64,000 nucleotides of DNA from Flavobacteriaceae bacterium (GTDB lineage Bacteria; Bacteroidota; Bacteroidia; Flavobacteriales; Flavobacteriaceae), in assembly GCA_018608625.1 (NCBI GenBank), contig JABAZC010000058.1, forward strand, positions 22,333 through 86,332, read 5' to 3'. Shown here piece after piece: positions 55,546 to 61,553 of the stretch. Below the pieces are notes generated by a model. It was given only the letters and a program-made list of their open reading frames with translations. It was not told the origin of the DNA and did not search any database. Numbering within the stretch: the first letter of the stretch is position 1; every line of letters begins with the position of its first letter. The position numbers and the translations under genes were made by a program.

Positions 55546-55575
55546 AAAAAAGGCTCGCAATGCGAGCCTTTTTTT
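55546..55575. terminator. Bidirectional terminator at the end of the aromatic operon
   Basis: A-run, GGCTCGCAATGCGAGCC, T7. Confidence 0.9.
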
Positions 55576-56674
55576 ATTTATTCAAGATTTTCTCTTGATG
55601 ATTGATCGATTCTTGGTGTATCGCCTTAAATAATTTGAGTATAAACTCTTCACTTAAATTGTACTGCTCCCCTTCAAGGACCATTTTACCTAAAATTTCA
55701 TTCCATCGCTTACTTTGTAAAACAGCAACATTCTTTTGTTTTTTAAGAGAACCGATTCCCTCTGCTACTTTCATTCGCTTTCCTAAAGTATCAAGTAGCT
55801 GATTATCCATTACATCAATTTGAGCACGTAAATTTTGGAGTTGATCGTTATAATCTGCTTCTGGCGTTGATTCTTTTCTGATTTTTAGATCTTTCATAAT
55901 CTGAATCAATGAAGCTGGCGTTACTTGTTGTGCTGCATCACTCCACGCATTATCTGGGTCAAAATGAGTTTCAATCATAAGACCATCAAAATTTAAATCT
56001 AAAGCTGTTTGTGAAACATCAAAAATCATATCACGGTTTCCTGTGATGTGAGATGGGTCGTTAATCAATGGAAGGTCTGGAAACTTTGTTTGAAGTTCTA
56101 TTGCCATTTGCCATTCTGGTGTGTTTCTGTATTTAGTTTTCTCATATGATGAAAACCCTCTGTGAATGACTCCTAAGTTTTTTATATCTGCTGTTGCCAA
56201 TCGTTCAACTGCTCCAAGCCATAATGCTAAATCAGGATTTACAGGGTTTTTAACTAAAACAATTTTATCGGTGCCATTTAATGCATCTGCAATTTCTTGC
56301 ACAATAAATGGACTCACCGTTGAGCGCGCACCAATCCAAAGCAAATCGATATCGTGCTCTAAAGCTAATTCTACATGGGCTCTATTAGCAACCTCAGTAG
56401 CTGTTTTTAAACCGGTCTCTGCTTTTACTTTTTGAAGCCATTTTAGACCTAATGCGCCAACCCCTTCAAAATTTCCTGGACGCGTACGGGGCTTCCAAAT
56501 TCCAGCACGGTAGTAGTTAACATCCGTATTTTTTAGCTCATGAGCAATTTTTAATACTTGCTCTTCGGTTTCAGCACTGCAGGGTCCCGCGATAACTAAG
56601 GGGTGGTCTAGGTTTAAGTCATTCAACCAACTTCTGAGTTCTTTTTTATTTTCCATTTTTTTATTTTTAAGCAA
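55574..56674 (-). CDS. Bifunctional DAHP synthase/chorismate mutase
   Basis: DHPLVIAGPCSAETEEQVL; IWKPRTRPGNFEGVGALGLKWL; chorismate mutase type II C-terminus LRAQIDVMDNQLLDTLGKRMKVAEGIGSLKKQKN. Confidence 0.96.
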   Translation of the reverse strand: MLKNKKMENKKELRSWLNDLNLDHPLVIAGPCSAETEEQVLKIAHELKNTDVNYYRAGIWKPRTRPGNFEGVGALGLKWLQKVKAETGLKTATEVANRAHVELALEHDIDLLWIGARSTVSPFIVQEIADALNGTDKIVLVKNPVNPDLALWLGAVERLATADIKNLGVIHRGFSSYEKTKYRNTPEWQMAIELQTKFPDLPLINDPSHITGNRDMIFDVSQTALDLNFDGLMIETHFDPDNAWSDAAQQVTPASLIQIMKDLKIRKESTPEADYNDQLQNLRAQIDVMDNQLLDTLGKRMKVAEGIGSLKKQKNVAVLQSKRWNEILGKMVLEGEQYNLSEEFILKLFKAIHQESINHQEKILNK

Positions 56675-57518
56675 TTCCTTTTAGTATTTTTTTTATGTGA
56701 TTTGTGTTTTTCATCTCGGAATATACAGCATCAAAATCATCATTTTCAATATATGCTTTAAATTGATTTAAGTTTTGAATATACTCATTAAGAGTTTCTA
56801 TAACGTTCTCTTTATTTTGTTCGAAAATCGGAGTCCACATCGCTGGTGAACTTTTAGCTAATCGAACTGTAGATTCAAATCCACTTCCAGCCATATCAAA
56901 GATATTTGACTCATTTTTTTCTTTATCAATTACTGTCTTACCTAACATAAAGGAACTAATATGTGATAGATGTGACACATATGCTATGTGTTTATCGTGA
57001 TCAATAGCTTTCATGTATCTAATATGCATTCCCATTGTTTCAAAAAGCGCTATAGCCTTTCCTGCGAGCACTGTTGAAGTTTGATTTAATTCACAGATAA
57101 TATTAGTTTTGTTCTTAAACAATCCTTTTAACGCTGCGGAAGGGCCTGAAAACTCAGTTCCAGCAATAGGGTGTGTTGCTAAGAAATTAGCGCGTTTAGG
57201 GTGTGCAGCAACTGCCTCACAGATTGCTTGTTTGGTAGACCCCATGTCAATCACAATAGCTTGATTAGGTATCAAATCTAAAACCTGTATCAATACATTA
57301 ATCGCTGTATTTACAGGAAGAGCTATCAAGACAAGTTCGGCAGAACTTACGGATGCTAAATCGCCGGTTTGATCGATTATACCTAGCTTTAATGCTTCCT
57401 TTAAATGCGCATCATTTTGGTCAATTCCAGAAATATAAACTCCAGGGAAATGACTCTTGAGATCTAATGCAAAGCTTCCACCTATTAACCCAACCCCTAT
57501 GATGCTTATATGTTTCAT
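56667..57518 (-). CDS. tyrA: Prephenate dehydrogenase
   Basis: ISIIGVGLIGGSFALDLK; DMGSTKQAI; THPIAGTEFSGP. Confidence 0.95.
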   Translation of the reverse strand: MKHISIIGVGLIGGSFALDLKSHFPGVYISGIDQNDAHLKEALKLGIIDQTGDLASVSSAELVLIALPVNTAINVLIQVLDLIPNQAIVIDMGSTKQAICEAVAAHPKRANFLATHPIAGTEFSGPSAALKGLFKNKTNIICELNQTSTVLAGKAIALFETMGMHIRYMKAIDHDKHIAYVSHLSHISSFMLGKTVIDKEKNESNIFDMAGSGFESTVRLAKSSPAMWTPIFEQNKENVIETLNEYIQNLNQFKAYIENDDFDAVYSEMKNTNHIKKILKGIA

Positions 57519-58657
57519 AATACGCGTTTTATAGCCAATTCAATAGACTCACTTGGAGCACATAATGAAAAGCGTATGTAGCCCTCTCCATTGGTTCCGA
57601 ATATGGTTCCAGGTGCAATAAACAAGTGGTAATCATGTAGTATTTTATCAATAAATGCTTCGGACTTAAGCCCTCTAGGCAATTTAGCCCATACAAACAT
57701 TCCTGAGGTATTTGTTTCAAAGGTGCAATTTAAAGCCGTTGCCAATTCCCATACCAGTTTCCGGCGTTCTGAATAAATGAGATTCAAGTCGCTAAACCAA
57801 TTTTTGGAGCTATTTAGAGCTTCAATTGCTCCTTTTTGAATACCATAAAACATCCCAGAATCCATATTGCTTTTAACTTTAATAACATTGTCTAGATGCG
57901 CTTTAGCACCTGTTAACATTCCCACACGCCATCCAGCCATATTAAATGTTTTACTTAAAGAGTTCAATTCTAAACAAACCTGCTCAGCGCCTTCAACATT
58001 AAAAATACTAGAGGGTTGGTTATTTAAAATAAAGCTGTAGGGATTGTCATTGATAAGGAGTATCTCATTCTTTTTTGCAAAATCAACAAGTCCTTTTAAA
58101 ATCTTTTTGTTTCCCAAAGTACCCGTGGGCATGTGCGGGTAGTTAATCCACATTAATTTGACCTTAGACACATCCATAGCCTCTAGAGAAACTAAGTCTG
58201 GCTGCCAATTAGAGGTTGAGTTTAAATCGTAAAAAACAGGAGTAGCTCCTACTAACTTTGTCACAGACGTATACGTGGGATAGCCTGGGTTTGGGATCAA
58301 GACCGCATCCCCTTGGTTAAGGTATGCCATTGAAATATGCATAATCCCTTCTTTGCTTCCGATCAATGGGAGCACTTGGTTTTGAGGGTTTAGTGATATA
58401 TTATAATGCGCTTTATAAAAATTTGCCATTGCCAAGCGAAGTGCTGGTAATCCTTGATAACTTTGATACTTGTGAGCAGAGGCATCCGACAAACTATCTG
58501 TAATTGCAGTAATCACAGCTTTTGGTGGGGCTAGGTCTGGACTGCCTATTCCTAAATTAATAATAGGAGCTCCGGCCGCCTTAAGGGCATTTACCTCTCT
58601 TAATTTTTTAGAGAAGTAGTATTCTTCAACTGTGTGTAAGCGATCGGCAGTTATCAT
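57515..58657 (-). CDS. Class I/II pyridoxal-phosphate aminotransferase
   Basis: INLGIGSPDLAPP; LSKTFNMAGWRVGMLTG. Confidence 0.95.
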   Translation of the reverse strand: MITADRLHTVEEYYFSKKLREVNALKAAGAPIINLGIGSPDLAPPKAVITAITDSLSDASAHKYQSYQGLPALRLAMANFYKAHYNISLNPQNQVLPLIGSKEGIMHISMAYLNQGDAVLIPNPGYPTYTSVTKLVGATPVFYDLNSTSNWQPDLVSLEAMDVSKVKLMWINYPHMPTGTLGNKKILKGLVDFAKKNEILLINDNPYSFILNNQPSSIFNVEGAEQVCLELNSLSKTFNMAGWRVGMLTGAKAHLDNVIKVKSNMDSGMFYGIQKGAIEALNSSKNWFSDLNLIYSERRKLVWELATALNCTFETNTSGMFVWAKLPRGLKSEAFIDKILHDYHLFIAPGTIFGTNGEGYIRFSLCAPSESIELAIKRVL

Positions 58658-59484
58658 TATTTTTTCGCGTTTTTATATTCTCCTAATATTTTAAATTCTT
58701 CAGCCATGATTTTCATGATCGCTTTTCCTTTTTCATAATCCGAGTATGCTTCAAAAGTAATATCAACAAAAAAGGCGTATTTCCACGGCGTATCAATTTT
58801 AGGAAGTGATTGGATTTTAGTCAGGTTTAAATTACAATCACTCATCACATTGAGCATGGCAGCTAGACTTCCTCGCTTATGATCTAATAGAAATTTTACA
58901 GACGCTTTATTTACAGATTTAGTGTTTTTTAAATCAGAAACTCTTTCTACAATCACAAAGCGTGTTTCATTGTGTTTAATGGTTTGTATGCTCTCTGCTA
59001 AAATATCTAAATCAAATAGGTGGGCAGCTTCTAAACTGGCTATTGCAGCGACCCCCACAATTTTACCCTCATAAATTCGTTTGGCAACTTCAGCAGTGTC
59101 CGTATCCTCAATTAATTTAATGTGGGGGTACTGTTTGAAGAACGCCTTACATTGCAACAAAGCCATTGGATGTGAAAACACTTCTTTGATGTCACTAATG
59201 TTTTGACCTCTCAGAGCCATCAAGTTGTGTTGTATCTCTAGGAAATACTCCCCTGTTATATATAAATTTTGATCATCAATGTGAGCATAGTTTGGTATTA
59301 TTGAACCTGCAATAGAGTTTTCTAATGCCATGACGGCCATGTCGGTGTGTTTGGATGCCAGGCTGTCTACTACCTCTCCAAATGAAAGATAGGGTTGCAC
59401 CTCAACAACTTCCTCAAAATACGTCTGAGAGACGATGTAATGAAAAGACCCTTCTATACCCTGTATGCCTACTCTTTTTTTCAT
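58657..59484 (-). CDS. pheA: Prephenate dehydratase
   Basis: VGIQGIEGSFHYIVSQTYF; LENSIAGSI; ETRFVIVER; ACT domain. Confidence 0.95.
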   Translation of the reverse strand: MKKRVGIQGIEGSFHYIVSQTYFEEVVEVQPYLSFGEVVDSLASKHTDMAVMALENSIAGSIIPNYAHIDDQNLYITGEYFLEIQHNLMALRGQNISDIKEVFSHPMALLQCKAFFKQYPHIKLIEDTDTAEVAKRIYEGKIVGVAAIASLEAAHLFDLDILAESIQTIKHNETRFVIVERVSDLKNTKSVNKASVKFLLDHKRGSLAAMLNVMSDCNLNLTKIQSLPKIDTPWKYAFFVDITFEAYSDYEKGKAIMKIMAEEFKILGEYKNAKK

Positions 59485-59513
59485 AAAAAAAAATCTCGAT
59501 GTTTACATCGAGA
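59485..59513 (-). terminator. Leader terminator (attenuator) of the pheA operon
   Basis: Minus strand TCTCGATG-TAAA-CATCGAGA then T9, directly followed by the pheA ATG. Confidence 0.88.
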
Positions 59514-59540
59514 CTTATATTTAAAATTTATATTGATAAA

Positions 59541-59618
59541 TTATACACACAATGCCACGATTTCTTTTCTAAAAAAGAAATAATAAAAGCTATAAAAAAT
59601 ATAATTTGCGTTTATCAT
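59541..59618 (-). CDS. Predicted Phe/Tyr-rich leader peptide (25 aa)
   Basis: ATG..TAA encodes MINANYIFYSFYYFFFRKEIVALCV; 5 Phe and 4 Tyr within residues 6-16, upstream of the pheA leader terminator. Confidence 0.8.
   Translation of the reverse strand: MINANYIFYSFYYFFFRKEIVALCV
59560..59581 (-). promoter_or_regulatory. Leader hairpin 1 overlapping the Phe codons (pause/anti-antiterminator candidate)
   Basis: Minus strand ATTTCTTTT-TTAG-AAAAGAAAT, perfect 9 bp. Confidence 0.6.
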
Positions 59619-59636
59619 AAGTAATTAATTGTTAAG

Positions 59637-59644
59637 CTAAAGTA
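59637..59644 (-). promoter_or_regulatory. Candidate -7 box (TACTTTAG) for the pheA leader transcript
   Basis: 7 of 8 match to TAnnTTTG, about 20 nt upstream of the leader ATG. Confidence 0.4.
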
Positions 59645-60180: not shown

Positions 60181-60190
60181 CATTTATAAT

Positions 60191-60243
60191 ATAGAGGACA
60201 AATTTGATCTGATTGCAACCTCATTAAAAAACAGCTAAAGCAG
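60191..60243 (+). ncRNA. SAM-II-like riboswitch
   Basis: ATAGAGGACAAATTTGATCTGATTGCAACCTCATTAAAAAACAGCTAAAGCAG: P1 GAGG/CCTC, loop CTGATTGC with pseudoknot partner GCTAAAGCAG; resembles the characterised metX/metA SAM-II core (..ATTGCAA...TAAA..GCTAAA..); lies 60 nt upstream of metK. Confidence 0.8.
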
Positions 60244-60302
60244 TAACACTACTTCTCTATAGCCCTGCAATTTTATTACTTTGTTATCATAAAAAATTAG
60301 TT

Positions 60303-61553
60303 ATGAGTTATTTGTTTACCTCCGAAAGCGTTTCAGAAGGCCATCCAGACAAGGTAGCCGATCAGATTAGTGATGCACTAATTGATCATTTCTTAGCTTT
60401 CGACCCAAGTTCAAAAGTCGCTTGTGAAACCATGGTAACAACTGGACAGGTAATTCTAGCAGGAGAGGTTAAGTCAAAAACCTATCTAGACGTACAAAAA
60501 ATTGCACGTGATACAATAAATAAAATAGGCTACACTAAAGGTGACTACATGTTTGATGGTAATTCTTGTGGAGTTCTTTCAGCAATTCATGAGCAATCTG
60601 AAGACATTAATAGGGGTGTAGATAGAGAAGATGAAGAGCAAGGAGCAGGTGACCAAGGAATGATGTTTGGATATGCCACCAATGAAACCATAAACTTCAT
60701 GCCTTTGGCATTAGACCTTTCACATAGAATACTAATTGAACTGGCAGCTATGCGAAGAGAAGGAACTGACATTACATATCTTAGACCCGATTCAAAAAGT
60801 CAAGTTACTATAGAATATGACGACGATAATACGCCTAAACGCATAGAAGCTATTGTAATATCTACACAACATGACGATTTTGATGAAGAAAAAAGCATGT
60901 TAGAAAAAATTCGAAAGGATTTAAAGACAAAATTAATTCCTAGAGTTGTTTCAAAGTTACCCACACATATTCGAGAACTATTCAACGACAAAATTAACTA
61001 TCACATCAATCCAACTGGAAAATTTGTCATTGGAGGACCTCATGGGGACACTGGGTTAACTGGACGAAAAATTATTGTAGACACCTATGGGGGTAAAGGC
61101 GCGCATGGTGGCGGTGCATTTTCCGGAAAAGACCCCAGTAAAGTGGATAGAAGTGCAGCCTATGCAACTCGTCATATCGCAAAAAACATGGTAGCATCTG
61201 GTCTTTGTTCAGAAGTATTGGTACAAGTCAGCTATGCTATCGGGGTTGCTGAGCCGATGGGAGTATTTATTGACTCCTACGGAACTTGTCCATTTAATTT
61301 GACCGACGGAGAAATTGCAGAGAAAATCTCAAAATTATTTGATTTGAAACCTGCAGCTATTGAAAAACGATTAAAACTAAGAAGTCCTATATATAGTGAA
61401 ACTGCAGCCTATGGACATATGGGGCGTGAAAACAAGTATGTCACAAAGGTATTTCACCAACCTAATGGCAACAGTAAATCCTTAAAAGTAGAATTATTTA
61501 CATGGGAGAAACTAGACTATGTCGATGCTATAAAGAATGCATTTAGGTTATAA
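60303..61553 (+). CDS. metK: S-adenosylmethionine synthetase
   Basis: [49 protein letters not shown]. Confidence 0.98.

Follow-up and report, generated by a model that had tools for sequence, protein, structure and literature searches.

The window analysed here, a 64-kb stretch of DNA from a marine flavobacterium, carries on its minus strand a pheA operon preceded by a leader region. The operon and its divergent neighbor comprise the following genes.

58657 to 59484, minus strand: pheA, prephenate dehydratase (PDT), first structural gene (PF00800, E 1.7e-51)
57515 to 58657, minus strand: aminotransferase class I/II (PF00155)
56667 to 57518, minus strand: tyrA-type prephenate dehydrogenase (PF02153, PF20463)
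55574 to 56674, minus strand: DAHP synthase/chorismate mutase fusion (PF00793 and PF01817)
60303 to 61553, plus strand: metK, S-adenosylmethionine synthetase, downstream of a SAM-II riboswitch

Within-locus matches to the aminotransferase and to the tyrA-type prephenate dehydrogenase were each found in 80/80 relatives. The SAM-II riboswitch (60188-60248, plus strand, 61.7 bits) lies 5' of metK and is divergent from the pheA leader. It was the sole match in an Rfam scan of the whole window, in which no family reached its cut-off over the pheA leader; a permissive scan (E <= 10) of the leader region gave chance-level matches only, and no Rfam 15 family covers the leader.

Architecture of the pheA leader

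Between the divergent genes, the following elements were located on the minus strand, listed in the direction of transcription.

59636 to 59644, minus strand: promoter-like box TACTTTAGC, which departs from the Bacteroidetes -7 element TAnnTTTG in reading TAnnTTAG (from conservation)
59541 to 59618, minus strand: leader ORF of 25 codons, encoding MINANYIFYSFYYFFFRKEIVALCV (read directly)
59571 to 59603, minus strand: regulatory codon run, codons 6-16, Tyr/Phe (from codon counts across aligned leaders)
59554 to 59561, minus strand: segment 2 outer arm AUCGUGGC, within leader codons 20-22, pairing with 59514-59507 (folding and covariation)
59547 to 59552, minus strand: segment 2 middle arm UUGUGU, pairing with 59520-59515, AUAUAA (folding)
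59543 to 59541, minus strand: leader stop codon
59525 to 59542, minus strand: inner AU-rich hairpin of the antiterminator, AAUUUAU-CAAU-AUAAAUU (folding)
59507 to 59514, minus strand: segment 3 GUCUCGAU, common to the antiterminator and the terminator 5' arm (read directly, folding)
59494 to 59513, minus strand: intrinsic terminator hairpin UCUCGAUG-UAAA-CAUCGAGA, -11.4 kcal/mol
59485 to 59493, minus strand: U9 tract, adjoining the pheA AUG (read directly)

Direct reading confirmed all sequence statements made about this region in a preliminary description of the DNA. The Phe/Tyr-rich ORF that it placed from 59618 to 59541 encodes MINANYIFYSFYYFFFRKEIVALCV, codons 6-16 of which include 5 for Phe and 4 for Tyr, and the hairpin that it called perfect is so, with 9 bp including a closing G-U pair and a U9 tract abutting the AUG at 59484. 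Thus, a short ORF rich in codons for the operon's products is followed, before the first structural gene, by an intrinsic terminator, an arrangement expected of a leader-peptide attenuator. With both strands of the window counted, just six short ATG ORFs reach 6 or more aromatic residues per 10, and the pheA leader is the sole one with a terminator downstream; the other five have none.

Conservation of the leader ORF, terminator and promoter-like box

A PheA search yielded 80 flavobacterial pheA loci, 78 of which were scored by script as having an aromatic leader and terminator 5' of pheA. One exception (L026) is cut inside the leader by a contig end, and the other (L049) lacks an ATG-started leader but can be read in frame from a GTG start, giving NYTYTLLYYFF. 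When the leader was searched for with a covariance model, 154 of 201 Flavobacteriaceae genomes gave a match, almost always a single one; of the 80 matches examined, comprising the 20 top-scoring ones and 60 with mid or weak scores, 79 had pheA downstream with an aromatic leader and terminator. In the other families of the class, 18/28 pheA loci had both leader and terminator, against 1/22 in other classes. Throughout the class the leaders vary widely in sequence yet retain Phe/Tyr/Trp codons. The comparison of leaders across relatives proposed in the preliminary description therefore came out positive, both for the leader and terminator (78/80) and for the aromatic codons.

The leader alignment comprised 75 sequences. 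Codon 13 encodes Tyr in 75/75 (TAT 66, TAC 9), codons 8 and 12-16 are nearly all Phe or Tyr, and at codon 11 Trp (49 leaders) outnumbers Phe (21) and Tyr (1). At this Trp position the clade of the window's leader has Phe, and a TGG to TTT swap requires two base changes; overall, Trp is present in 113 of 180 leaders. By a codon test, substitutions within the aromatic run were mostly F/Y/W swaps or synonymous. This record shows selection for Phe/Tyr/Trp residues in the leader, and the ORF is probably translated. The six core terminator pairs are intact in 73/73 distinct rows. In many relatives the annotated pheA start lies tens of nucleotides (up to about 150) past the terminator.

In eight leaders (L034, L036, L045, L046, L051, L053, L058, L073) the stop codon directly follows the aromatic run instead of occupying codon 26, and segment 2 is kept 3' of it. 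By footprint geometry, a ribosome at such an early stop would still shield much of segment 2.

The strict Bacteroidetes promoter pattern, TAnnTTTG, was found at 1 of 78 loci, and the search was therefore led to a TAnnTTAGC box. In the form TA[ACT][ACT]TTAGC, this box precedes the leader ATG at 77/77 assessable loci versus 0.3 expected by shuffling, at a near-fixed distance (median 15 nt), and in 57 of the 77 loci a TTTTG lies 18-27 nt further 5'. The box is nearly invariant 5' of leader ORFs (TACTTTAGC/TACATTAGC), a TTAG version of the -7 element for which TAnnTTTG is given as the Bacteroidetes consensus (PMC9723704). As judged from sequence, box and TTTTG together resemble a Bacteroidetes -33/-7 promoter with TTAG replacing TTTG, which would supply the predicted promoter upstream of the leader that an attenuator needs. 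Transcription would then start just before the leader ORF, near 59631, and the box argues against a transcription start 3' of the hairpin. The interval marked in the preliminary description begins at this box.

Antiterminator structure and three-way covariation

The preliminary description had proposed a 7-bp antiterminator between AUCGUGGC and GUCUCGAU. Its seven pairs and one U.U mismatch are present, but the antiterminator is longer and forms a full hairpin. In the window, with segment 2 to segment 3 folded, this hairpin has a free energy of -12.3 kcal/mol (z -4.0), whereas the fold of the whole leader is modestly below shuffles (z -1.9). Mean z for the antiterminator hairpin over the 75 sequences was -3.7, and most of them also fold with an inner spacer stem. 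These values come from per-sequence folding, used in place of RNAalifold, which, owing to poor alignment of the spacer, recovered just a 5-bp outer stem from the aligned segment 2-3 region.

Pair counts on the segment 2-3 alignment were no better than shuffles. Covariation within the family is hard to see because segment 3 is nearly constant there, and loci with differing arms were tested instead. The resulting set held 178 loci with 26 distinct terminator cores, of which one locus per core was tested, and scoring used trimmed terminator arms as untrimmed arms were noisy. Summed complementarity between segment 2 and the terminator arm over the 26 cores was 314 versus 185 +/- 19 when permuted, a value equalled in 0 of 20,000 arm permutations. 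Examples of matched arm and segment 2 are GUCCCG/CGGGAC, ACCCGG/CCGGGU, GUUCCG/CGGAAC, GCCUCG/CGAGGC and CCUGCC/GGCAGG. Full 6/6 pairing was seen in just 14 of the 26 representative arms, partly because automatic core choice is crude. The covarying terminator and antiterminator stems for which the preliminary description had advised looking are thus present, with no permutation scoring as high. Antiterminator and terminator share segment 3 and are mutually exclusive, as in an attenuator, with covariation over 26 arm types, and the three-way covariation shown among segments 2, 3 and 4 is the decisive result for the predicted switch. Segment 2 is also constrained in position with respect to the leader stop, ending a median of 13 nt before the end of the stop codon.

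Codon 21 falls within segment 2 and encodes Glu in 72 of the 75 aligned leaders (GAG 70, GAA 2). The window has GTG, which accounts for the U.U mismatch in its antiterminator; a leader from the same genus (L221) has GAA. The window's own switch may be weaker owing to this mismatch.

A second perfect hairpin of 9 bp over the Phe codons (AUUUCUUUU/AAAAGAAAU) had been noted as a possible 1:2 structure. The hairpin does exist in the window but is not conserved in relatives, where 70.9% of cells were paired, no better than slid controls, and we rejected it as a conserved element. Its overlap with the antiterminator amounts to only 2 nt. Of the 1:2/2:3/3:4 logic suggested earlier, the 2:3 versus 3:4 choice is borne out by covariation and a conserved 1:2 hairpin is not. 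Because the 1:2 hairpin is unconserved and overlaps the antiterminator so little, we describe a two-structure switch (2:3 versus 3:4) lacking the pause/protector hairpin of the E. coli trp and pheA leaders. We treat the 1:2 hairpin as an accessory of the enterobacterial form that the mechanism does not require.

Three loci (L088, L207, L214) carry tandem, complete aromatic leader ORFs before pheA, each with its own terminator. Relative to pheA these leaders lie at -342 and -189 (L088), -306 and -164 (L207), and -271 and -155 (L214). In each of the six, the post-aromatic segment pairs better with the arm of its own terminator than with that of its neighbor. A tandem arrangement of leader-peptide attenuators seems unusual.

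Proposed mechanism, alternatives and related systems

Collectively, leader codon conservation, the promoter-like box and terminator/antiterminator covariation support the earlier proposal of a ribosome-mediated Phe/Tyr attenuator. We consider it very probable that the pheA leader is a transcription attenuator sensing charged tRNA-Phe and tRNA-Tyr, with tRNA-Trp added in most relatives. Transcription would start near 59631 and the 25-codon leader would be translated. With charged aromatic tRNAs plentiful, the ribosome would reach the stop at 59543-59541 and shield segment 2 (59561-59547), allowing segments 3 and 4 to pair and the RNA to end in the U9 tract before pheA. When these tRNAs are scarce, the ribosome would stall within codons 6-16 and leave segment 2 free to pair with segment 3 (59520-59507) ahead of the synthesis of segment 4, and RNA polymerase would enter the operon. 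We infer from this scheme a response to starvation, and hence regulation.

Pairing probabilities, computed on the assumption that the ribosome footprint ends 16 nt from the P-site codon, are consistent with this geometry, in which segment 2 is free on stalling and shielded at the stop. With the ribosome at the stop codon, terminator probability was 1.00. For a stalled ribosome on an RNA that ends at segment 3, antiterminator probability was 0.80. For full-length RNA at equilibrium, the terminator prevailed even with a stalled ribosome (0.87, versus 0.12 on average for the antiterminator and 0.18 in the window); therefore, the choice must be kinetic.

Control of the terminator by a trans-acting protein or a small-molecule-binding RNA (riboswitch, T-box), with the short ORF incidental, would be compatible with the terminator/antiterminator pair, as would any attenuator, and a sub-threshold match to a PyrR site covers the region (E 0.11, 27.6 bits versus a cut-off of 54). 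Yet no Rfam family reaches its cut-off over the leader, and the conserved part beyond the hairpins is a reading frame that changes by synonymous and aromatic-for-aromatic substitutions and is constrained relative to segment 2. Leaders that diverge class-wide while keeping Phe/Tyr/Trp codons also speak against such control, which we regard as highly improbable.

We give the same very low standing to a mainly translational role, in which the leader ORF would affect pheA translation by coupling or reinitiation and the hairpin would act on ribosome access rather than transcription. Hairpin and U-tract do adjoin the pheA AUG in the window, and for many bacteria, Bacteroidetes included, leader ORFs have been proposed as sites of reinitiation (PMC4833913). 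Nonetheless, hairpin, T-run and segment 2 complementarity are kept where the pheA start lies well beyond them, and it is hard to see what a U-tract would do in a translational switch. Least credible of all is a chance run of Phe/Tyr codons in AT-rich intergenic DNA beside an ordinary terminator: UUU and UAU are common in such DNA and the leader fold scores just z -1.9, but no other aromatic short ORF of the window is followed by a terminator, and a chance origin has already been refuted by conservation, over at least 170 loci, of the reading frame, its codons, the covariation and the promoter-like box.

The preferred reading, ribosome-mediated attenuation, has precedents. In the enterobacterial pheA leader, a Phe-rich leader peptide governs a 2:3 versus 3:4 choice before pheA. 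The leader described here is alike in these respects and differs in its mixed Phe/Tyr(/Trp) codons, in an operon that also makes Tyr and DAHP, and in having no conserved 1:2 hairpin; the enterobacterial Phe leader of Rfam gave no match at its gathering threshold or at E <= 10. Leaders of the ilvGMEDA type are similarly multivalent, one leader carrying codons for several of its operon's amino-acid products, although these are branched-chain amino acids and the leaders differ in sequence and phylum.

Within Bacteroidetes, the Bacteroid-trp RNA (RF01692; Weinberg et al. 2010, PMC2864571) likewise has a leader peptide and a terminator abutting the first gene. It differs in its Trp codons and trp operon, and the RF01692 model has no match at the pheA leader. 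The window's own genome does have a single Bacteroid-trp-type match, which lies before trpE (L081, G000:C1:4199-4319, 43.1 bits, E 7.2e-4, cut-off 49), with leader MNFTLNNIWWWNSRKIKS (WWW) and a terminator touching the trpE start. A His-rich leader, MNTLLLIHHHLSTTSYQARC (HHH), with a strong terminator precedes hisG (L216, G000:C90, about 41.8 kb). Given these trpE and hisG leaders, leader peptides seem to be in use for several amino acids in this organism; a scan before ilvD and the homoserine dehydrogenase gene of the same genome found no similar leaders.

Guerin et al. 2021 (PMC9723704) reported structured 5' elements before pheA and hisG in the fish pathogen Flavobacterium psychrophilum, conserved in other Flavobacteriaceae genera and without Rfam hits, along with strong clues for leader-peptide attenuation before amino-acid biosynthesis operons. 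Their pheA element shares gene and family with the leader here, a likeness of gene position rather than of sequence alignment, and the main text of that report describes for it no leader peptide, antiterminator or covariation. As that paper lists a pheA 5' element, it had been noticed earlier; with Bacteroid-trp (RF01692) also known, attenuation in a bacteroidete, which the preliminary description considered of interest, is not new in itself. Novelty is modest; beyond those reports, the present analysis contributes the anatomy of the element, a test of covariation, the multivalent codons, its distribution across the class and the tandem cases.

On balance, we lean toward a class-wide Bacteroidia family of multivalent aromatic attenuators that would read Phe, Tyr and often Trp together for common-pathway flux, without a 1:2 hairpin and in tandem in some lineages. 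The operon's DAHP synthase would link such multivalent reading to the common aromatic pathway. The leader family is a candidate addition to RNA databases, and its tandem attenuators, multivalent sensing and natural antiterminator mismatch are testable targets. Phylogenetic evidence points to leader-peptide attenuation as a standard and conserved means by which aromatic amino-acid synthesis is controlled in a phylum whose translation is independent of Shine-Dalgarno sequences, with Trp and His leaders alongside in the same genome.
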